From a virus: a DNA stretch of 23,997 nucleotides. Below the pieces are notes generated by a model, which was not told where the DNA came from, made no database searches, and saw nothing but the letters and a program-made list of their open reading frames with translations. Positions 2,379-22,505 of this stretch are shown here, piece after piece. The first letter of the stretch is position 1. Every line of letters starts with the position of its first letter. The position numbers and the translations under genes are program-made. Where the stretch lies: the IMG/VR virus record IMGVR_UViG_3300021093_000356, positions 1 through 23,997 of that record; one strand, written 5' to 3'.

Positions 2379-5300
2379 TTATTTAATCGCTGCTAATGCT
2401 TCTGAAGATACCATATTTCTAAAAGGATGTCCCATAGGGACCAAGAAATCTGTATTATTTTTATTGGTTCCACCAGCAGTATTGATTGCAATTGTTCCAC
2501 CGCCGCCACCACCGCCGCCACTAGTCCCCTGATTATTATTTATTGTGGAAACTTGAGGTTTAGCAGCCTCTCCACTCTTTGCATCTTTTAATTGTGCAGA
2601 CTGTTGTAATACTTGACTTCCTGTTGGAGTGGCTGGAGTAGCAGGTTTTATTTCTGCTTGAGGAGTTCCTTGTTTCGCATTGATTGTCGCCATCAAGACT
2701 TCTCTCTCAAGAGCTTCTCCACTTAGACCTTTTAATTTACCTTCTTCTCTTGCTTTCTTAGCTGCCGCGAACTCTGCGTCTGTTGGGGTGAGATCAGTTC
2801 TTAACATCTTTTTCAACTGTTCGGTTGAAAGTTTAGTTAAATCATTAGATCCTCCAGCAGCACGGCGCAGAGGATGGTCTGCAGGAAAACCAGCATCAGC
2901 TCCACCACCTAAACGTGATACCTCTTGTTCGTAGAACATAGCTTGTTCTTTTTTAGCTATATCAACTATATCTGGACCACCTTTGCGAGTAAATCCTTCT
3001 AGTTCTTTTGATCCAAGATCATACTTGTACGTAGTTGCAGACACAGATCCATCTGGATTTGTTGTAATTTTTGGTTCACTTGGCACTCCAGTTGAAGTTT
3101 TACCACCAGGGGTTCCAGCAGCTGGGGTTCCAGTTCCAGCAGCTGGGGTTCCAGTTCCAGCAGCTGCTGGTGAGCTCACCCCTAACATCTTTCTAGCAGT
3201 ATCTCCACTTAAAGCGGCACCCAAGGTATCCCACCAATTATTTTCTGCTGGAGCAGCTCCACCACTAGCACCACCAGAAGAAGATGAAGATGAAGATGAA
3301 GATGAAGAATTTGAAGCGGGCCCACTACTTTGATCACCAAGATCATCAACCTTTCCAGCACCTTTACCAAGTAAATTTATGAGCATTTTTGAAGGTTTAA
3401 TTTCTTGATATTGTTTCCAAAAATCTTTATCTGCTTTAGTTCCAGCAGCTCCCCCAACATCAATACCTATACAACCAGCAGTTCCATTGTTTCCAATATC
3501 ATTATGAAACATTAAACCACTTCTGCTACCCAATGAACCACTAGAGTTACCAATATAAACAGACCAATCTCCTAATCCTGCCATAACATATCCATGATAA
3601 TCAGCACCAACTAAAGAATATGTACCATCTGGATGGGGAGACATTTTTGTATGGAAACGATCTTTTTGTGAGACATTACTCTTACTTGATATTCCTGATC
3701 TTGCCTTATAAGATTTTCCTACCTTGGCACCACCTTTATACATTGAAAGTGTTCCTGTCCATCCAGAACCATCACCATCAACTTTTATCATTCCTCCTCC
3801 CGCCAGGGATTGACGTATCATAGACATTTTCTTTCTACGATCTCTACCAGCACGAGGATCTGGTATCAATTCACCCCCACCAGCATAAGGTAAAACATAA
3901 CCACCTGCCTTTGCTTCTCTATATCTACTTGCAGTTAATGCGGGATTGTTTACTGTACGGGGAGTATCAAATGGAATCACAAATGCACTACTTAAAGATC
4001 CACCTGATGCCTTTTTCATTCCAACCCATTCTGTGCCATGACCAATGAATGATGTTGAATTACCACCATCAAGTGATACAGGATATCCAGATTGAGGTCC
4101 ACTAATCCATCCTCCACCAGCTTTTTGTGGTGGATTAGTTCCAACATTATTTCTTCTATTTCTTGGTGGTGAAGTAGTATCTACTCCTTTTGCTTTGGCT
4201 TCGGCATCATATTTTCTAACTAATTCTTCTCTTCTCTTAACATCATCTTCTGTAATATAATTTAAATCTAATCCTTTCTTTGGAGCTTGTTTAATGAAAA
4301 ATGCTCTTACTTGATTAAATGCTTTTTGTTTCTGTAACGTATTTTTATCCTCATCGATTCTTAATCGCTGCCAAAAAATACCATTATGTTTATATACCTC
4401 ATAATCTCCATTAGTTGCGTTCAGTAGAACTTTATACCGTGTTTTTCCATCGGGGCCCACGAATGGGAGTTCGTGCCTATTTGCTGCCGCATTAGAAGAA
4501 TCCATCTTTCTTCTTTGATCAGATGATTGCCCCTGTTGTGTAGCTACAGAAGCACCTTTACTTTGCCCTGTACTTAGATCTTGACTTCCTTTTCCTTGTT
4601 TTGCAGCTTCAACAGCAGATGCAGAAGATTCATCAGCAGAATCTTCTTTTGCTCCTTCATTTGGAGTGGTATCTGGAATAATTGGTGCGGGTGCTGTGCC
4701 TTTTGCGCCTTTCTTATCTACTTTTTTAGTCATGAAAAGTAGACCACTTACTATATCAGCAAGTAACCCTCTTACTGTTTTATTTCCACCAGGACTCCAA
4801 ACTCCACTATCAGATGGATTTTTAATCGTAATATTACCAGTTCCTATTTTATCTGCTAGAGATTCTCCATCAGCAGAATCATCTTTTTCTCCAGACTTAA
4901 TCTTATCTTTTGCAGCTATGGCATCAAATAAATTCGCAGGAACTCCAAATGATTGTGCAATAGGAATAGATAAAGCTTTAATAAATGGTTTGCTAGATTC
5001 TCCAACTGGTCCAAGTGAATTAACTACGTTACCTAAATTGGTTAATAACGCTGCACCAACTGCCTTAAACGGCAATCTCATTGCGTCTCCAATATTCTTT
5101 GCTATTTTGGAATCTGACATTACAGATTTGATACCATCAGTAACATTTGCAAGAGGATCTCCACCACTTCTTGTGTATTTGTTATCTAATGGTATAATAG
5201 CTTCAGTTCCATGCAACATTGCAGGATAACCTGAATCTGGACCTTGAGCAATTCCACCAGTTGCATATTCCTTTGGTTTTCCTGTCTTTAGATAAGAGAT

Positions 5301-6401
5301 CTGTTCATCGATTTCAGATCCTTTTCCCTGCAGCTGATCCAAAGGATTTAAATTCTTTTTCTGTTCCTCTAATTTCTTTATTTTCTCTTCGTTTGATCCA
5401 GGTGCCGCATCAGTTTTTCTCTCCTGTTCATTGACAGTTCCTGGGAACATTGCAGGAATTGTAGCACCAGCAGTAAATAATACAGCACCAGCTGCAAGAA
5501 CTTTACCCCAACCAGGCAAAGCATTTGCAGCCATCAAAATTCCTTTGGCTGCTTTTGCAGCTATACCTAAGGCTTTAGGTAACATTCTCAATAGATTAAA
5601 TGCAGTCTTAAGATCTCCTAATATCTTCCACGGTTTGTTCATCCAAGTTAAAGTTTTAAATAAAACAAATGCACCAACTAAGAATTGAACTACACCTATA
5701 ACTTTTTCAAATATATTACCATCAATAATTTTAACAATACCATCCAACATGTTGGTAATGCCAAAATTAATCAAACCCATAAAAAATTCAAATATTTTCC
5801 TGACTGCTATAAAAAATTTACCAACTTTTTCTGTATTCTGTGGATCCATTATCCACTTCAATACACCACTAACAAGTGCAGATTTTATTAATAGTTGAAA
5901 TAAATCTCTTATAAAATCTAAAAATCCTCCTGCCGCTTTTTTCGCCACATTTTTGATGGGGGCGAACATTTTACCTAAACCTAGACCTTCAGATTTTTTC
6001 TCGGAAGATTGATCTAATGATCTTCTTGCAGCATTAGATTCTCTTTTATCCTTATCCTGTTTTAATTTAAGTAGTTTTTTCTGACTATCTAACTGGAATT
6101 TATTAAACTTTGCTCTTTGTTTATCTGCTTTTACTAACTTTGTATTTAATGATTTTACATTCTTATTAATACTTGATACTGTAGTAATAGTAGAATTAAT
6201 GCTTGCTCCCAATCGGTTGATGCCTAATATTGTCTTTCTTCCATAGGCATTCATTCCATTTGTTCTATCTGTTGCACCACCACCCGCAGGAGATCCACCT
6301 TTACGAATCATGAACTTCTGAGCATTGATCGTAATTGATTCTAAATTTTTATCTCTTACTCCACCTGGATTTACAAATTTGTATAGTGATAATTGAGCCA
6401 T
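2379..6401 (-). CDS. Second tape-measure-like protein with YkuD-like domain
   Basis: This 1340-residue protein has the marks of a tail tape measure. It has a coiled N-terminal region (about 55-125), then hydrophobic amphipathic helices (about 150-325, including VSGVLKWIMDPQNTEKVGKF), and Gly-rich motifs SGYPAMLHGTEAIIP (about 387) and SGPQSGYPVSL (about 765). Residues about 870-1015 look like an L,D-transpeptidase (YkuD-like) domain, with SPHPDGTYSLVG and FHNDIGNNGTAGCIG, where H966 and C977 are candidate catalytic residues. A poly-Ser linker, a WWDTLG motif, a GTPAA repeat and a run of nine Gly follow. The N-terminal third is paralogous to the upstream 1434-residue protein. It probably fills the tail tube and may act on peptidoglycan during injection. 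The spacing of His and Cys is shorter than in classical YkuD enzymes, so the activity is uncertain. Confidence 0.75.
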   Translation of the reverse strand: MAQLSLYKFVNPGGVRDKNLESITINAQKFMIRKGGSPAGGGATDRTNGMNAYGRKTILGINRLGASINSTITTVSSINKNVKSLNTKLVKADKQRAKFNKFQLDSQKKLLKLKQDKDKRESNAARRSLDQSSEKKSEGLGLGKMFAPIKNVAKKAAGGFLDFIRDLFQLLIKSALVSGVLKWIMDPQNTEKVGKFFIAVRKIFEFFMGLINFGITNMLDGIVKIIDGNIFEKVIGVVQFLVGAFVLFKTLTWMNKPWKILGDLKTAFNLLRMLPKALGIAAKAAKGILMAANALPGWGKVLAAGAVLFTAGATIPAMFPGTVNEQERKTDAAPGSNEEKIKKLEEQKKNLNPLDQLQGKGSEIDEQISYLKTGKPKEYATGGIAQGPDSGYPAMLHGTEAIIPLDNKYTRSGGDPLANVTDGIKSVMSDSKIAKNIGDAMRLPFKAVGAALLTNLGNVVNSLGPVGESSKPFIKALSIPIAQSFGVPANLFDAIAAKDKIKSGEKDDSADGESLADKIGTGNITIKNPSDSGVWSPGGNKTVRGLLADIVSGLLFMTKKVDKKGAKGTAPAPIIPDTTPNEGAKEDSADESSASAVEAAKQGKGSQDLSTGQSKGASVATQQGQSSDQRRKMDSSNAAANRHELPFVGPDGKTRYKVLLNATNGDYEVYKHNGIFWQRLRIDEDKNTLQKQKAFNQVRAFFIKQAPKKGLDLNYITEDDVKRREELVRKYDAEAKAKGVDTTSPPRNRRNNVGTNPPQKAGGGWISGPQSGYPVSLDGGNSTSFIGHGTEWVGMKKASGGSLSSAFVIPFDTPRTVNNPALTASRYREAKAGGYVLPYAGGGELIPDPRAGRDRRKKMSMIRQSLAGGGMIKVDGDGSGWTGTLSMYKGGAKVGKSYKARSGISSKSNVSQKDRFHTKMSPHPDGTYSLVGADYHGYVMAGLGDWSVYIGNSSGSLGSRSGLMFHNDIGNNGTAGCIGIDVGGAAGTKADKDFWKQYQEIKPSKMLINLLGKGAGKVDDLGDQSSGPASNSSSSSSSSSSSGGASGGAAPAENNWWDTLGAALSGDTARKMLGVSSPAAAGTGTPAAGTGTPAAGTPGGKTSTGVPSEPKITTNPDGSVSATTYKYDLGSKELEGFTRKGGPDIVDIAKKEQAMFYEQEVSRLGGGADAGFPADHPLRRAAGGSNDLTKLSTEQLKKMLRTDLTPTDAEFAAAKKAREEGKLKGLSGEALEREVLMATINAKQGTPQAEIKPATPATPTGSQVLQQSAQLKDAKSGEAAKPQVSTINNNQGTSGGGGGGGGTIAINTAGGTNKNNTDFLVPMGHPFRNMVSSEALAAIK
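3113..3166. repeat. 21-nt tandem repeat in tape measure 2 (GTPAA linker)
   Basis: Two exact copies of a 21-nt unit (3113-3133 and 3134-3154) and a partial third copy encode the GTPAAGT repeat. It lies in the low-complexity linker behind the YkuD-like domain. Because 21 nt is seven codons, changes in copy number keep the frame. Confidence 0.9.
3277..3309. repeat. Microsatellite encoding poly-Ser linker
   Basis: A GATGAA-type hexanucleotide tract on the plus strand encodes a run of serines on the minus strand, between the YkuD-like domain and the WWDTLG motif of tape measure 2. Slipped-strand changes here would alter linker length without a frameshift. Confidence 0.85.
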
Positions 6402-6406
6402 TTATC

Positions 6407-9400
6407 TTAATACATTGTGAAGAATGATTTATAACAAGCTTGAGGCATAGCAGTTGTTTCAACTACTTGCGGAGGAGGAGTTGGAATTATTTGTCTCCTG
6501 AAATTATTTAGGATTACTACTTTGTTTTTAGTAAACATGTTTTCATCTGGCAGTTTTGGAGACTCTTTGACTATTTGCGTGTTTGCATTAGACATTGATG
6601 TAGATGCTGGTTTGATATTTGATAAATCAATACCATTCTGAGCAAGTTCAAATCCCTTTGCGGCAATATTAGCATACTTATTTGGGAATAAATATGCCTG
6701 GATTTCTTCATATCCAGATTGTCCTGGTTTTACTCTTTTAGCCATCGCTGGGAAATTTTTAGCCCATTCTTGCATTGGTGTGAGTTTAACTTCTTTCTTG
6801 TCTTCTTTTGGTTTTGGTGGAGTTGCAGTAGGTGAAGTTGGAGAATATGAGATTTTACTCATATCAATACCTTTAGCAAAGTTCAATGATGGTGATGGAT
6901 TTAAGTATGATTGAATATCATCATATCCAGATTGTCCTGGTTTTACTTTTTTAGCCATTTCTGGGAAATTTTTAGCCCATTCTTGCATTGGTGTGAGTTT
7001 ACCTGGTTTGGTGCCAAAAGGATTTTTTGATAAACTATCTGCAATAGAATTAAACATTCCAGATGAATCTGGAGTAAAGTTTAATGAATTTGGATTAAAG
7101 TTTAAATCTATTAATCCACCAGCCGCTGCAGATTTTGTTTGTAATCCTGCAAGGGCTTTTTGACATTCAGCTAAATGTGCCTTATACTTACCTCCAGTAA
7201 ATGTTGTCCAAGCACTGAAATTTACACCACCTGATATTTTGTAAGCAATTTTAGCATTAGTTTCGGGTTTAAATAATTCTTCATTAGAGTTTAGTCCCCA
7301 GTTTTTTCTTCTGCGTGGACCAAGATCACCAATCATATTAATTTGCCAAAGTCCATATGAATTATCTGGTGGTTTTTTGTTGTGTGCCATTGGATTACCA
7401 GTGGACTCTGCCCATGCAACCGCAGCAGCGATTGCAGCATGTCTACCTTTAAATCCTACTTTCAATGCAAGACTAACAAGTTGTTGTTTATTTAAAGCAC
7501 CTGATGTGGGTATAGATCCTGGAGTATAACTTGCATTTGGATCTGGGGTTGTAGAACCAGTACCAGGACTAGAACTAGGACTAGAACTAGGACTAGAACT
7601 AGGAGAAGAAGATGAACTTGCAGGTTGACCACTAATCATTTGTCTTGCAGTCTCTCCAGAAAGAGCCTTTCCTAATGTATCCCACCAATTTTCTGCTGGA
7701 GCAGATTGGGTCTGTTGTGAATTTGAAGAAGGTGAAGATGATGATGGTTGATCCCCAGGCGCAGCTCCTGGATCTGCAGATGCATCCCATTTGTCACCTG
7801 TTGCTTTTAATAATGATTCTCTACTAATATCTCTTCCTCCAATACCTGATCCTCGTTCTCTTTTCATAGCAGAAAAGTGCATTGCATCATCAAAGAAACT
7901 TCCCCAACCAAGACCGTACTTAGCTGCTATTTGACCAACATTTGATGGAAAATCTCCATATCTCTTTCCTTTAAATGCTGGATTTCTGGTCCAGTTAATA
8001 TCAATTGCAGCTCCGTATGGGTGTGCATACAATGGACCTTTTCCATCTTTATTTCCTGATGGAGGTCCATCAGGCCTAAATCCTCCCATCTCATTAATTT
8101 TATATCCAGTTCCTTCTAATTCGTAAACAAATCCTTGGAATCTTTGTGCCAAAGCTTTTGCTACTTCAGCTCTCCTTCCACTCTTAGAATTGATATATGT
8201 TAGAGGAACACCTGCAGCCCATGAAGTTGATGATGTATTTGGAACTACTCTATGTGATCCTCCGGCCGCAAACTCTGGTTTCTTTTTAGATTCTGTCTTT
8301 TTAGCTTCTGCAAGTTTTGTGTTAATAATATGTTGTTGTTCTCTATTTTTATATTCTGCAGGAGCCATTAACATGCCTCCGCTAGCCATTTTAGCTAAAA
8401 TTCCCTTTGCATAGGAGATTCTTGGTCCATCATGATGAACTCCAGCACGTTCCCAATTTTTTCTAAACCAGACAGCTGCTTTTGCAGTGTCAGTCATTTT
8501 TTTGAATCCTTCAGACAACTTTTCAGTTGTCCTCATCTCATTAACGGCAAATTTAAAGTTATCCTCATTTGTAGGAACTTTGTTATAGTCACCACCATAA
8601 CTTTCAATAAATTTATCATAACGATCTCCTGGAACTGAATTAGTCCATTGAGCCCAACCATATCCTCTTCTTGTAGTTCCTTTAGGCCATGGTTTTGAAT
8701 TTCTTCCAAATGGTCCGCCTTCTCTAATACCAGGAATGAATCCTGCAGATTCGTGTGCGAAATTGCCCGCAATCGCTGCTGCAGCTTCCTTTGTCATTCC
8801 CAAATTACTTTGGAACTTCTTAGCAATAGCGACTCCCTTATCTACTACACTGCCACCAGCAGCAGGAATACCACTAGAATCTACAGATCCAGTATCACTG
8901 CCGGTGCCTGCTGGAGTTCCAGCTGGAGCGGCGCCTGTTCCTGTACTGCCAGTAGTTGATCCTTCTTTATTGAAATCTTTATTAACTAACATTCCAAGAA
9001 CACCAACCACTGATGCAAGTAATCCAGTTACACTCGTATCAGAACTTAATTGTCCTTTAGTTATGTTAGGAGCAGTATCTTTGGCAATTAAACTTTCAGC
9101 TTCATCTGGTGCTGAACCTTGTTTTATTTCTGATTTACTTGGTTTTTTAGTACTTGCTGCTAATTTAGACTGATTGATTAAAACTCCAGACTTACCAAAT
9201 TGAACTTGAAGTTGTCCAATTTCAGCTCCTAACATCTGATCAGCAAGTTTTCCACCTGGACCTAGATTTTTCACTGTTTGACTAGTAGCATCAACTAAAA
9301 TACCACCAACCTGTTGTGGTGTTAGTTTCTTACCATCTCGTACAATACCACCCCTTTCAAATTCTTCTGTTTTTGGTGGTGGTCCTTTTGGTTTTTGTCC

Positions 9401-10711
9401 GAAGAATATATCATATAATTTTCCACCAGCCCAATCACCAGCAAATCCACCTATGATAGCACCTAATGGTCCACCAAAACCAGTACCAATAGTACCTAAA
9501 ATACCAGCGCCGATTGCCTTAAATGCAGCTCTTCCTAGTGGTTCTCCCATTGCAACAGAGAGACCAAAGTCTAATAATGCGCCAATTAGAGGTAATCTTT
9601 TAACGAAAGGTCTAATTACTTTTAATGCAGTTTTTGTTCCACCTTTACCGAGAACACCAACGGCAGTTTTTCTTAGTGCATTTTGAACTCCAGATCGTGC
9701 ATACTTACCACCCAGAGACTTTACGGCATCATTGCCAAATCTCTTCCTAGCCGCCTCGATACCATATCTGTCTGCATACCTTCTGGCAGCCGCTGGTGAG
9801 GTTGTGGGACCTGTTCTGCCTGGGCCTGAACCAGTTATCCCTGTCTGTGGCTTTCCTCTATTTCGGGAGTTATTGTTGTTATTATTATTTTTTTTAAAAT
9901 TAGATTCCTTTCCAAGTATACCTGCAATATCTCTGAATAAAGACATTGGATCTGAAAGCCACCTTAAAGTCAAAATACCTGGAATAGCAGTTAATATTTG
10001 GCCTAATCCCTGGAAAGTTTGTCCTATATCTCCTTTTCTCAGTCCATCAACAGTATCAAATATTCCAGATCCAAGTGTTATTATTGATCCTGCAATAAAT
10101 CCACCTACTTTTTCTACTACATTAAAAAGAAATTTACATACTTTTTGTATACCTATAAATATTTTTCCAACTTTTTCTGTGTTCTTTGGATCCATCATCC
10201 ATTTTAAAACACTACTTGTTATTGCATACTTGATGAATAACTGCAATAAATCTTTTATAAAATCAAAAAATCCTGAAGCTGGTTTAGTAACTTTTTCTGC
10301 AATTGCTTGAGGTTTAATTCCCAAAGGATTTCTTTCTGAAGTATCTTCTGATTTTGAATCTAAAGACCTTCTAGAAGCATTTTTTTCCGCAAACTCTTTT
10401 TTCTTCTCAGACTTTAAATCATCAGCTCTTAACTTTGCAGATTTGAGATTATCTTTAGATTCTCTCTTATCAATTGTTTCAAAAACTTTAAATGTTTTAA
10501 CTAAAGACTGGTTGAATGAAACAAGTTGAGAGTTCAACGAGTTTATAGCTTGACCTAAATTATTAAAAGCCTTTAACGATGTCTTGAAAGACGAAAATGC
10601 AGGGTCTGAATCTGCAGATTTTTTCTTGCCATTAACAAGCACTTTCGCACCTAACTTTGTAGATACGGAAGAAAATTTAGTAAATTTCTTTTTTGCTGTT
10701 ACTGTGGCCAT
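6407..10711 (-). CDS. First tape-measure-like protein with three wall-active domains
   Basis: At 1434 residues this is the largest gene in the window. The N-terminal part (about 1-330) is coiled and amphipathic and shares WMMDPKNTEKVGKIF with the next gene. A Gly-rich hydrophobic stretch lies at about 371-430. Three peptidoglycan-active domains then follow. A phage-tail lysozyme-like domain at about 630-780 has FAHESAGF with E654. A peptidase M15-like domain at about 850-955 has the zinc motif HPYGAAID (H897, D904) and DDAMH (D942, H945). A transglycosylase-like domain at about 1080-1200 has AESTGN (E1102) and SYGLWQIN. Near the C-terminus LTPMQEWAKNFP is repeated. The ATG overlaps the preceding TAA as TAATG. 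The protein probably sets tail length and opens the cell wall. Domain names rest on motifs I can see. Confidence 0.8.
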   Translation of the reverse strand: MATVTAKKKFTKFSSVSTKLGAKVLVNGKKKSADSDPAFSSFKTSLKAFNNLGQAINSLNSQLVSFNQSLVKTFKVFETIDKRESKDNLKSAKLRADDLKSEKKKEFAEKNASRRSLDSKSEDTSERNPLGIKPQAIAEKVTKPASGFFDFIKDLLQLFIKYAITSSVLKWMMDPKNTEKVGKIFIGIQKVCKFLFNVVEKVGGFIAGSIITLGSGIFDTVDGLRKGDIGQTFQGLGQILTAIPGILTLRWLSDPMSLFRDIAGILGKESNFKKNNNNNNNSRNRGKPQTGITGSGPGRTGPTTSPAAARRYADRYGIEAARKRFGNDAVKSLGGKYARSGVQNALRKTAVGVLGKGGTKTALKVIRPFVKRLPLIGALLDFGLSVAMGEPLGRAAFKAIGAGILGTIGTGFGGPLGAIIGGFAGDWAGGKLYDIFFGQKPKGPPPKTEEFERGGIVRDGKKLTPQQVGGILVDATSQTVKNLGPGGKLADQMLGAEIGQLQVQFGKSGVLINQSKLAASTKKPSKSEIKQGSAPDEAESLIAKDTAPNITKGQLSSDTSVTGLLASVVGVLGMLVNKDFNKEGSTTGSTGTGAAPAGTPAGTGSDTGSVDSSGIPAAGGSVVDKGVAIAKKFQSNLGMTKEAAAAIAGNFAHESAGFIPGIREGGPFGRNSKPWPKGTTRRGYGWAQWTNSVPGDRYDKFIESYGGDYNKVPTNEDNFKFAVNEMRTTEKLSEGFKKMTDTAKAAVWFRKNWERAGVHHDGPRISYAKGILAKMASGGMLMAPAEYKNREQQHIINTKLAEAKKTESKKKPEFAAGGSHRVVPNTSSTSWAAGVPLTYINSKSGRRAEVAKALAQRFQGFVYELEGTGYKINEMGGFRPDGPPSGNKDGKGPLYAHPYGAAIDINWTRNPAFKGKRYGDFPSNVGQIAAKYGLGWGSFFDDAMHFSAMKRERGSGIGGRDISRESLLKATGDKWDASADPGAAPGDQPSSSSPSSNSQQTQSAPAENWWDTLGKALSGETARQMISGQPASSSSSPSSSPSSSPSSSPGTGSTTPDPNASYTPGSIPTSGALNKQQLVSLALKVGFKGRHAAIAAAVAWAESTGNPMAHNKKPPDNSYGLWQINMIGDLGPRRRKNWGLNSNEELFKPETNAKIAYKISGGVNFSAWTTFTGGKYKAHLAECQKALAGLQTKSAAAGGLIDLNFNPNSLNFTPDSSGMFNSIADSLSKNPFGTKPGKLTPMQEWAKNFPEMAKKVKPGQSGYDDIQSYLNPSPSLNFAKGIDMSKISYSPTSPTATPPKPKEDKKEVKLTPMQEWAKNFPAMAKRVKPGQSGYEEIQAYLFPNKYANIAAKGFELAQNGIDLSNIKPASTSMSNANTQIVKESPKLPDENMFTKNKVVILNNFRRQIIPTPPPQVVETTAMPQACYKSFFTMY
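6707..7000. repeat. Duplicated LTPMQEWAKNFP segment in tape measure 1
   Basis: Two copies, at about 6707-6788 and 6919-7000, encode near-identical segments of about 30 residues (LTPMQEWAKNFP, then KPGQSGY and an IQ-YL end). Their DNA is also very similar, which suggests a recent duplication or gene conversion. In each copy a Pro-rich linker follows. Confidence 0.85.
7565..7600. repeat. 12-nt tandem repeat encoding SSSP linker
   Basis: Three exact copies of AGGACTAGAACT (plus strand) encode SSSP repeats between the M15-like and the transglycosylase-like domains of tape measure 1. The unit is four codons long, so copy changes are in frame. Confidence 0.92.
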
Positions 10712-10905
10712 TATAGATCGTGCCTAGCTGCTTGGTTTTGTTTTTGAATTCTATCATTCTCTTCTTTAATATATTGAGTCAACAGAATAACATAAGAATC
10801 TCTCTCCCAGGGCATCATATTTTCAATGTCTTGCAAACTGTACTTATGATGTTGCATTAAGGCAAAATTTAATCGTATATAATTCTCTAGAGAATTATAT
10901 ATCAT
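10711..10905 (-). CDS. Small tail assembly chaperone, second-frame domain (T-like)
   Basis: This 64-codon frame lies between gp26 and the first tape measure, the standard place of the second tape-measure chaperone domain (lambda T, P2 E'). The protein is helical and has the pattern YSLQDIENMMPWERDSYV followed by an acidic/basic helix, which resembles many such small tail proteins (my recollection of the family, not a search). Its ATG at 10905 has no Shine-Dalgarno sequence; upstream is only TTTTTTCGCATAGCG. The frame is -1 relative to gp26 and open across the gp26 stop, so it may be made as a gp26 fusion by frameshifting, by re-initiation, or both. Its TAA overlaps the next ATG (TAATG). It might be the counterpart of T4 gp51 by position only. 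Confidence 0.75.
   Translation of the reverse strand: MIYNSLENYIRLNFALMQHHKYSLQDIENMMPWERDSYVILLTQYIKEENDRIQKQNQAARHDL
10876..10901. repeat. 26-nt perfect palindrome behind the frameshift site
   Basis: The 26 bases are fully self-complementary (half-site TATATAATTCTCT). In RNA they give an 11-bp stem with a CTAG loop, starting 12 nt after the slippery heptamer and just behind the ATG of the 64-codon frame. It could stimulate frameshifting, hide the start region, or bind a protein. The stem is AT-rich, so its strength is modest. Confidence 0.8.
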
Positions 10906-10907
10906 CG

Positions 10908-11618
10908 CTATGCGAAAAAAGATGCTAGACCCTCAATTCTAACTTCACTTTCAACCTCAGTATTAGGATTTGTTACCTTAACTACTTTTTCTAGTTTAGG
11001 CATAGTTTCAAAGAATTTTTGAAGTTTTTGGAATTGTTTGTTGTCCATACTTTCAATAAATTCCATAACTTCTTTTTTGGGAACATCTTTTGTTTCCCAA
11101 ACTTCTTCTCCACTAAAAATTTGATCTATACAACTTGCAGTAAGATCAAATGCAGTTTCTGCACCAGCATCAACAGTAAAGTTATTCTTGACGAATGTAT
11201 CTAAACTTGGATACTTCATAATGACTCCAACGTTATCATCAATTTGAATTTTTGGATCATGAGCTTCAGGCATCTCCACTTCAATTTCATCAAGATTGAT
11301 GTCTACAGTTACTTCGGTAGCACCGTCATCTGGACATGTTATTGTTACTGTAGAAACTTCACCAACAGATTTAGATCTGATTTTTAGGAAAATATATTCG
11401 ATTTCAAATGTAGGCAGATCATCTACCTTTTTCTTTAAGGTAGTGCAATTTTTAATGATGGTTTTTACAGCATTGATCATTTGTTTTTGATCTTCAGTTT
11501 CCATAGCCATAATAAGAATTTTTTCTTCTTTGACTAAGAAAGGTCTATATTTGATTTTTTCTTTTGTAGTTGGTAAAATCAACTCATATTCAGGCGTTAC
11601 AAGTTTAGGTAAAGGCAT
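10908..11618 (-). CDS. 26: Baseplate hub assembly protein gp26
   Basis: The 236-residue protein has the size and character of the T4 gp26 family (T4_baseplate). It opens with a beta-rich N-terminus (LVTPEYELILPTTKEKIKYRPFLVKEEK), includes a TITCPDDGATEVTVDINLDE segment, and ends with a helical half containing KEVMEFIESMDNKQFQKLQKFF. In T4, gp26 is needed for hub assembly around the tape measure gp29, a chaperone-like role in the cytoplasm. A clear AGGAGTAATT site precedes the ATG at 11618. It heads the operon of tape measures and hub. The last codons, TCT TTT TTC GCA TAG, contain a T-TTT-TTC heptamer in the correct frame for -1 slippage. Slippage would join residue 235 through R-I-A to the whole next frame, giving a product of about 302 residues. 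Confidence 0.82.
   Translation of the reverse strand: MPLPKLVTPEYELILPTTKEKIKYRPFLVKEEKILIMAMETEDQKQMINAVKTIIKNCTTLKKKVDDLPTFEIEYIFLKIRSKSVGEVSTVTITCPDDGATEVTVDINLDEIEVEMPEAHDPKIQIDDNVGVIMKYPSLDTFVKNNFTVDAGAETAFDLTASCIDQIFSGEEVWETKDVPKKEVMEFIESMDNKQFQKLQKFFETMPKLEKVVKVTNPNTEVESEVRIEGLASFFA
10914..10920 (-). promoter_or_regulatory. Candidate -1 ribosomal frameshift heptamer
   Basis: In the gp26 reading frame the sequence is T TTT TTC, a valid X-XXY-YYZ slippery heptamer, one codon before the gp26 stop (10910-10908). After a -1 slip the frame reads CGC ATA GCG ATG and continues in the 64-codon frame with no stop. A perfect palindrome starts 12 nt downstream. The downstream frame has no ribosome binding site of its own. 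Confidence 0.6.
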
Positions 11619-20716: not shown

Positions 20717-20963
20717 TGTTAATACTCGGCATTAATTTAGGATTAACTCTACCTTCTGTCCAGACAATAGACTGAATAGAACCAGGACCATATGTGTCAT
20801 AGTAGAAGTCAAATGCATCTACCATTCTTGGAGCCCTGGCAATATCATATCTAACCTCACCATCAACAATATAAGTAATTAACTTAGCATCTTGAGGTAA
20901 GCTTTTATCTTTAGACTCATGTTTAGAGCAATTTTGAAAAAGTATTTTACAATTATACTTCAT
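20703..20963 (-). CDS. Conserved-type small protein, unknown function
   Basis: The ATG at 20963 overlaps the upstream TGA (ATGA) and gives 86 residues starting MKYNCKILFQN. A run of seven G ten to fifteen bases upstream acts as its ribosome binding site and also encodes the end of the preceding protein. The GTG at 20978 is an alternative start but less likely. The protein has a beta-rich start with two Cys and a central segment RAPRMVDAFDFYYDTYGPG. I do not recognise it. Confidence 0.75.
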   Translation of the reverse strand: MKYNCKILFQNCSKHESKDKSLPQDAKLITYIVDGEVRYDIARAPRMVDAFDFYYDTYGPGSIQSIVWTEGRVNPKLMPSINNEKK

Positions 20964-21394
20964 GAACGTCCCCCCCACTTAATTTGTGGGAAGGATTCTT
21001 GTACAACATTTTTAGTAACTCTATACTTTTCTTGAAGTCTTCCGTCTTTTACAAGGACAAGTAGTTCAGCTTCTTCCTTATGAAGTCCCTCTAAAAGTTG
21101 AATAAACAACATTTCTCTACGAGTCTTTGTAATAGAATCATTTCCACCTTTCAAAAAGTTATGAAGGGTTCTATGTTCTTTCTCTAAAACTGTATGTTCT
21201 GTTCCTTTTGGAGCCTCATTTGGAGTGAAGGGAACTTCACCTTCAGGCAGAAGAGAGATAACACTCTCATCAAAATTCCAAATAAGAATGGCTCTTAAAC
21301 CATCACTGTTATGTTCTTGAAACAATTTGATTTTTTCTTGTTTTGTTTTAGCGTTAGATACTTTTTGTAGTACCTCTGAAATTAACAATCTCAT
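20960..21394 (-). CDS. DUF6433-type protein
   Basis: The 144 residues begin MRLLISEVLQKVSNAKTK. Typical blocks follow: LIWNFDESVISLLPEGEVPF, TPNEAPKGTEHT, REMLFIQLLEGLHKEEAELL, and the end FPQIKWGGRS. I recall this pattern as a family of T4-like marine phages named DUF6433, whose function is unknown. The ribosome binding site GCAGGAG precedes the ATG. It starts 1 nt after the RNase H stop, which suggests a replication-related role, but none is proven. Confidence 0.8.
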   Translation of the reverse strand: MRLLISEVLQKVSNAKTKQEKIKLFQEHNSDGLRAILIWNFDESVISLLPEGEVPFTPNEAPKGTEHTVLEKEHRTLHNFLKGGNDSITKTRREMLFIQLLEGLHKEEAELLVLVKDGRLQEKYRVTKNVVQESFPQIKWGGRS

Positions 21395-22271: not shown

Positions 22272-22505
22272 TTACTCCTCGTTGTCATTTTCATCATTAA
22301 AAAAATCATCATCTATATGGAGGTACATTAATTCATCTTTAGTAAGATTTCCATCTTGATCATACATTTCTGGATGGAAGATACTTTTAGCATATGAAGC
22401 ATGTTCTAACCATTCACAATATCTGTCGTTAACAAACCACCCCATAAAGAAACCAACAATTAATGTTAGTAGTATTGTGAAGAAAAGTAGAATCTGCGTT
22501 TCCAT
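22272..22505 (-). CDS. Small membrane protein with acidic tail
   Basis: The 77-residue protein begins METQILLFFTILLTLIVGFF, a clear single membrane segment (about 5-26), followed by WFVNDRYCEWLEH and an acidic tail (DDDFFNDENDNEE). It ends 3 nt before rnh and its GAGGAG serves as the rnh ribosome binding site. A GGAG element precedes its own ATG. The layout of TM then acidic cytoplasmic tail is like other short phage membrane proteins. Function unknown. Confidence 0.8.
   Translation of the reverse strand: METQILLFFTILLTLIVGFFMGWFVNDRYCEWLEHASYAKSIFHPEMYDQDGNLTKDELMYLHIDDDFFNDENDNEE

Follow-up and report, generated by a model that had tools for sequence, protein, structure and literature searches.

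The sequence studied is an IMG/VR viral contig of 23,997 bases from a marine T4-like phage (record IMGVR_UViG_3300021093_000356), the whole of which is referred to below as the window. On its minus strand, gp26 is followed by a frame encoding a gp51-like domain and then by the gene of a 1434-amino-acid (aa) tail protein; that is, a short gene with a −1 extension lies directly 5′ of a candidate tape measure gene. Near its 3′ end, gp26 carries the heptamer T TTT TTC, at which, with a probability of roughly 0.93, a −1 programmed ribosomal frameshift of the lambda G/GT type takes place and gives short and long tail assembly chaperones. The features of the locus are as follows:

10908..11618, minus strand: gp26 open reading frame (ORF), 236 aa, putative short form of the tail assembly chaperone (G-like), from PF12322, phrog_150 and an AlphaFold model
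10930..10934, minus strand: GAGGG, Shine-Dalgarno (SD)-like sequence 9–10 nucleotides (nt) 5′ of the heptamer, from 4-mer frequency and Glu codon bias
10914..10920, minus strand: slippery heptamer T TTT TTC in the gp26 phase, from conservation and wobble changes on the tree
10908..10910, minus strand: gp26 stop codon TAG, which a −1 shift would bypass, from the sequence
10711..10919, minus strand: post-shift −1 frame FF-RIA-MIYNSLEN...RHDL, gp51 domain (T-like), from phrog_634 and coding constraint
10711..10905, minus strand: 64-aa ORF annotated from ATG 10905, the C-terminal part of the −1 frame, gp51-like
10876..10901, minus strand: predicted stimulatory hairpin with an 11-base-pair (bp) stem and a UAGA loop, from folding energy against shuffles
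6407..10711, minus strand: next gene, a 1434-aa tail protein and tape-measure candidate, from lysozyme-like domains and PHROG matches

The gp26 product matched PF12322 (T4_baseplate, E-value = 8.7 × 10−73) and the baseplate hub family phrog_150 (E-value = 1.8 × 10−78), and its AlphaFold model had a mean predicted local distance difference test (pLDDT) score of 87.8. The 64-aa ORF matched phrog_634, baseplate hub assembly catalyst (gp51), with an E-value of 2.6 × 10−25, and weakly matched positions 242–280 of phrog_150 (E-value = 6 × 10−4); evidently, some phrog_150 members carry both the gp26 and the gp51 parts. The closest relative of the locus, L001, had a gp26 97% identical to that of the window, and the nearest cultured phage was S-H38 (gp26 identity 62%).

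The end of gp26 reads GCA TCT TTT TTC GCA TAG CG ATG ATA on the minus strand, and after a slip the −1 frame would be read as TTT TTT CGC ATA GCG ATG ATA, running into the 64-aa ORF. An earlier note on this DNA, made from the sequence alone, had claimed this gp26 end, an in-frame T TTT TTC and a −1 slip into the 64-codon frame, as well as the lack of a ribosome binding site for that frame. Sequence, coordinates and frame all proved to be as it described, and no SD sequence was found at the normal distance 5′ of ATG 10905 (preceding bases TTCGCATAGCG), which begins two bases after the gp26 stop TAG 10910–10908. Two further features of the junction, absent from the earlier note, are the GAGGG at 10934–10930 and the hairpin at 10901–10876. 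In this AT-rich window, six T's in phase occurred at just 2 of the 6394 in-phase positions of the minus-strand genes, and TTTTTTC was found five times on the whole minus strand; because both are so rare, the in-phase T-run at the end of gp26 exceeds chance. Two other in-phase heptamers near gene ends of the window were rejected, namely, TTTTTTT in 22272–22505, after which stops are met at once, and GGGGGGA in 20960–21394 (minus strand), 16 nt before the gene end, which enters the overlapping next gene in the −1 frame and probably reflects no more than a normal overlap of genes.

Two scans of viral contigs yielded 160 related loci, which together with the window formed a first set of 161 loci; a second set, for which distant relatives served as seeds, gave 62 readable junctions. 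The earlier note had suggested aligning the junction across genomes; close relatives without the heptamer, or without the −1 phase, would count as evidence against a shift. In the first set, the gp51 domain was in the −1 phase at all 161 loci, and 160 of them had an in-phase T TTT TT(C/A/T) inside the overlap; the distant set had the heptamer in 61 of its 62 readable junctions. The frameshift was thus not refuted by this comparison. The exceptions were L134 (1276–2078), in which gp26 is truncated before the slip site and the gp51 frame is intact, the gp26 end having been lost through deletion or misassembly, and L175 (near 2249) of a Stenotrophomonas phage with a gp26 99% identical to that of phage Moby, in which five T's instead of six alter the gp26 reading, owing to a sequencing error or a natural mutation. 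The named phages with the site (eight or more) were P-SSM2, ACG-2014e, S-PM2, MA01, an Ochrobactrum phage, the KVP40-type vibriophage PVA8 (Straboviridae), Stenotrophomonas phage Moby and Sinorhizobium phage phiM9 (TTTTTTG); they span Kyanoviridae, Straboviridae (Schizotequatrovirus), Menderavirus and Pootjesviridae. Separately, Salmonella phage ST-W77 (Ackermannviridae; L169, ~3292) was found to carry a homologous gp51-like −1 frame after gp26, with no gp51 gene annotated and neither T6 nor any other X XXY YYZ heptamer at the gp26/gp51 junction; this frame may have another mode of expression. In another locus (L244, 1483–2255), a frame change of one base, probably due to an error in sequencing, breaks a T4-type gp51 in two.

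The constraint acting on the site was evaluated in 88 non-redundant junctions, less than 90% identical to each other and selected for having the heptamer. The codon 5′ of Phe-Phe was AGT, TCT, GAT, AAT or GCT (S, D, N, A), with a final T in 88/88, and Phe-Phe was written TTT TTC in 81 of the 88, the background ratio of the Phe codons TTT and TTC being 589:234. On the gp26 tree, the three heptamer codons accumulated 0, 0 and 3 wobble changes, the median being 28 (233 codons; 88 junctions). It should be noted that T4-type gp26, which does not frameshift, also retains the GL-x-(x)-FF motif, as would be expected if Phe-Phe were needed merely as protein and the heptamer were a by-product of AT-rich codon use. 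T4-type gp26, however, encodes the motif in the non-slippery form GAG/GAA TTC TTT, in which TTC TTT follows a codon whose last base is A or G, whereas among loci of the frameshift group the codon 5′ of Phe-Phe varies in its amino acid yet retains its T, and wobble change is close to zero. Thus, T4-type gp26 is a natural control in which the protein motif was kept while the heptamer is absent, indicating that the heptamer was lost where it was not needed, and a purely protein-level explanation is scarcely credible.

An SD-like 4-mer of the GAGG/GGAG type was detected at a conserved place in 81 of the 88 loci (control windows: mean 8%, maximum 50%). In most loci, the element started 13–15 nt 5′ of the heptamer, which corresponds to a spacing of ~10 nt and falls inside the range of 9–14 nt reported for stimulation of −1 frameshifting (PMC5009743). 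Glu codons at this place were GAG and GAA in a ratio of 55:13, in comparison with 444:1226 in the rest of gp26. On the 3′ side, the hairpin predicted in the window has a perfect stem that lies 12 nt 3′ of the heptamer, with an outer 3-bp helix beginning 7 nt 3′ of it; its minimum free energy was −9.8 kcal/mol (45 nt), and none of 200 synonymous shuffles was as stable (p = 0.005). The stem is retained in L001, with added pairing, and in one large group a GUAUGGCUCA...UGAGUCAUAC stem is located ~5 nt 3′ of the heptamer. Since stem registers differ between groups, RNA folding was judged by its energy relative to dinucleotide and synonymous shuffles. Directly 3′ of the heptamer, folding exceeded that of dinucleotide shuffles (z about −1.4 to −1.7) and of synonymous shuffles (mean z −2.07, with p < 0.01 in 30% of loci), whereas farther downstream z was −0.07 to −0.32 and 0–2% of loci had p < 0.01; the excess was thus confined to the stretch just past the heptamer. 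By analogy with known sites, the SD-like element and the hairpin probably raise the slip rate.

A homopolymer run of this kind also raises the question of transcriptional slippage, in which RNA polymerase would gain or lose a U on the T run and a minority of transcripts would fuse the gp26 and gp51 frames. Poly-A/T runs can act in this way (PMC3711429), and eight T's were found in some relatives; however, among the 88 loci the run consisted of six T's in 85 and seven in 3, whereas slippage usually involves at least eight (PMC3711429). Moreover, the run invariably fell in the codon phase X XXY YYZ and as a rule ended in C, neither of which is required by slippage, and the SD-like element and the hairpin suit ribosomal shifting. 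We therefore regard slippage of the polymerase as very unlikely and ribosomal frameshifting as the preferred explanation.

Over the 18 codons starting with the first one after the slip, changes in the −1 frame numbered 167, 126 and 385 at codon positions 1, 2 and 3, respectively. No stop was found within 45 codons of the −1 frame in any of the 88 loci, and neither of the other frames was open after the slip. As judged from these alignments, the −1 frame is under protein-coding constraint from the first post-slip codon. In 39 of the 88 non-redundant loci, no ATG, GTG or TTG was found ahead of the conserved NF motif; consequently, separate initiation of gp51 cannot be the general mechanism. In the RefSeq record of Synechococcus phage ACG-2014e (L164, 2513–2695), the gp51 frame is intact but wholly unannotated, as is expected if the frame has no start of its own. 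The 64-aa ORF could, in principle, be a separate small gene translated by termination–reinitiation, with a stop at TAG 10910–10908 and a restart at ATG 10905, and in keeping with this an ATG occupies the same codon in 31 of the 88 loci and such a start is used by the annotators of P-SSM2 and S-PM2. Nevertheless, reinitiation is contradicted by the 39 start-less loci and by the missing annotation in ACG-2014e, and it explains neither the invariant, phase-locked heptamer nor the coding constraint in the −1 frame 5′ of the ATG; in the group with the GUAUGGCUCA hairpin, moreover, the ATG sits within the stem. A gene of this kind is therefore a very improbable alternative to the frameshift.

The relation to the T4 proteins was evaluated with a virtual gp26–gp51 fusion of 302 residues. 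According to phmmer, T4 gp51 aligned to residues 23–280 of the fusion, whereas T4 gp26 matched its gp26 part only; in hhalign, the gp26-family profile matched the T4-type gp51 profile with a probability of 97.6%. Homology to both T4 proteins is thus indicated by PF12322, phrog_150, phrog_634, phmmer and hhalign. In the models, gp26 of the window and a T4-type gp51 had a common order of elements, with additional C-terminal helices in gp51. A sequence search of the PDB with gp26 gave no meaningful match, and a fold search of the PDB with T4 gp51 gave no match. These alignments imply that T4 encodes as two divergent genes what the group studied here appears to make from one start. The statement of the earlier note that T4 itself does not use the mechanism agrees with this divergent arrangement.

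Several points weigh against the frameshift or reduce the weight of the figures given for it. An ATG closely follows the gp26 stop in the window and in 31 of the 88 loci, and independent re-initiation may take place there to some extent. About half of the single loci had no significant hairpin and the position of the hairpin varied; for this reason, the evidence for the hairpin holds at the level of the group and in the window but not in every member. The presence of the heptamer in all 88 non-redundant junctions is not independent of the 160/161, as these junctions were selected on the heptamer, and the informative conservation figures are 160/161 and the contrast between wobble and amino acid change. 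Finally, the HK97 chaperone 2ob9 was hit 2 of the PDB fold search and a weak one (probability 0.57, E-value 0.6, template modeling (TM) score 0.41 by target); the likeness of the gp26 model to its fold is no more than suggestive.

Under the frameshift mechanism, most ribosomes would finish gp26 (236 aa), and some would slip by −1 at T TTT TTC and append the gp51 domain, giving the 302-residue fusion. We infer that slipping occurs in vivo and that its rate is enhanced by the internal SD-like sequence ~10 nt 5′ and the hairpin just 3′ of the site, in the manner of E. coli dnaX. By analogy with lambda gpG and gpGT, the role of the short and long products may be to keep hold of the tape measure protein and to bring in subunits of the tail tube. 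Assembly of T4 requires gp51, which is not present in the particle (PMC3004832), and the lambda chaperones bind the tape measure and the tail tube and are absent from the virion (PMC5009743). The 1434-aa protein encoded downstream, presumably the tape measure, contains the domains Phage_lysozyme2 and SLT_3 and matched phrog_790 and, weakly, the tape measure family phrog_9570. Its neighbor on the minus strand (2379–6401, 1340 aa) resembles it at the N-terminus (FFDFIKDLLQLFIKYAITSSVLKWMMDPKNTEKVGK / FLDFIRDLFQLLIKSALVSGVLKWIMDPQNTEKVGK) and matches the same PHROGs; on these grounds, the two large genes look like tandem paralogues, and either could be the tape measure gene.

Few viruses of the ocean are commoner than T4-like cyanophages. 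In current annotations, their gp51 is either a very small gene of its own, named "baseplate hub assembly catalyst", or missing. The frameshift would account for the difference in size between cyanophage and T4 gp51, define the actual long product and make gp26/gp51 part of the control of tail length known from lambda G/GT. An evolutionary link from a frameshift cassette to T4 genes 26 and 51 is plausible. More specifically, we tentatively suggest, at less than even odds, that the ancestral T4-like state was a dnaX-like three-part cassette (internal SD, T TTT TTC and hairpin) making short and long tail chaperones. The T4 lineage would later have split this cassette into two divergent genes, 26 for the short form and 51 as a frozen fusion, and the heptamer would then have decayed. 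T4 would then be a clear case of a gene pair replacing a frameshift, with the heptamer codons as a trace.

The lambda G/GT tail assembly chaperone frameshift was reportedly described by Xu, Hendrix and Duda in 2004 and is said to be conserved in long-tailed double-stranded DNA phages. A 2016 review likewise gives it as conserved in these phages "except T4" (PMC5009743). Sullivan et al. (2010) described cyanophage gp51 as ~20% of the length of T4 gp51, with likeness to its C-terminal part, and did not mention a frameshift (PMC3037559). Vladimirov, Gautam and Davidson (2022), who reportedly identified the tail assembly chaperones of T4-like phages and dealt with the same genes, are cited for poly-T slippery sequences in the chaperone genes of T4-like phages (PMC12846349), and PRFect (PMC10885494) cites them for the fact that some T4-like phages carry a fused long copy instead. 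Because of these citations, it is likely that the frameshift in T4-like relatives has already been described, at least in outline. In the accessible literature, which did not include the text of Vladimirov et al. (2022), no text dealt with the slip site in cyanophages, and none described the cassette of three parts or the gp51 frames lacking a start. The claim of a new case made by the earlier note thus holds for cyanophages within those papers and probably fails, to judge from the papers citing Vladimirov et al. (2022), for T4-like phages at large. The gp26/gp51 frameshift belongs, with good support, to a class that is already known; unless Vladimirov et al. (2022) already report them, the cassette of three parts and its disappearance from T4 would be what is new.

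As in lambda G/GT, the −1 shift is located close to where a short chaperone gene ends, ahead of a large tail or tape-measure gene, the short −1 ORF supplies a C-terminal domain, and neither half of the fusion relies on a start of its own; unlike in lambda, the sequence is unrelated, the site is T TTT TTC, an SD-like element lies 5′ and a hairpin 3′. The site resembles E. coli dnaX in its internal SD ~10 nt 5′, X XXY YYZ heptamer and 3′ stem-loop, whereas the dnaX heptamer is A AAA AAG and its shift yields the shorter product. In the Vandenendeviridae phage Adele (PMC12846349), a −1 shift on poly-T (GTTTTT) ending the chaperone gene was likewise inferred from conservation; this is a different phage family, and the likeness lies in the description of the site. 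In T4, genes 26 and 51 are divergent and lack the heptamer, T4 gp26 being the homologue of the short form and T4 gp51 corresponding to nearly the whole virtual fusion, whereas both products of the locus studied here are proposed to arise from one start.

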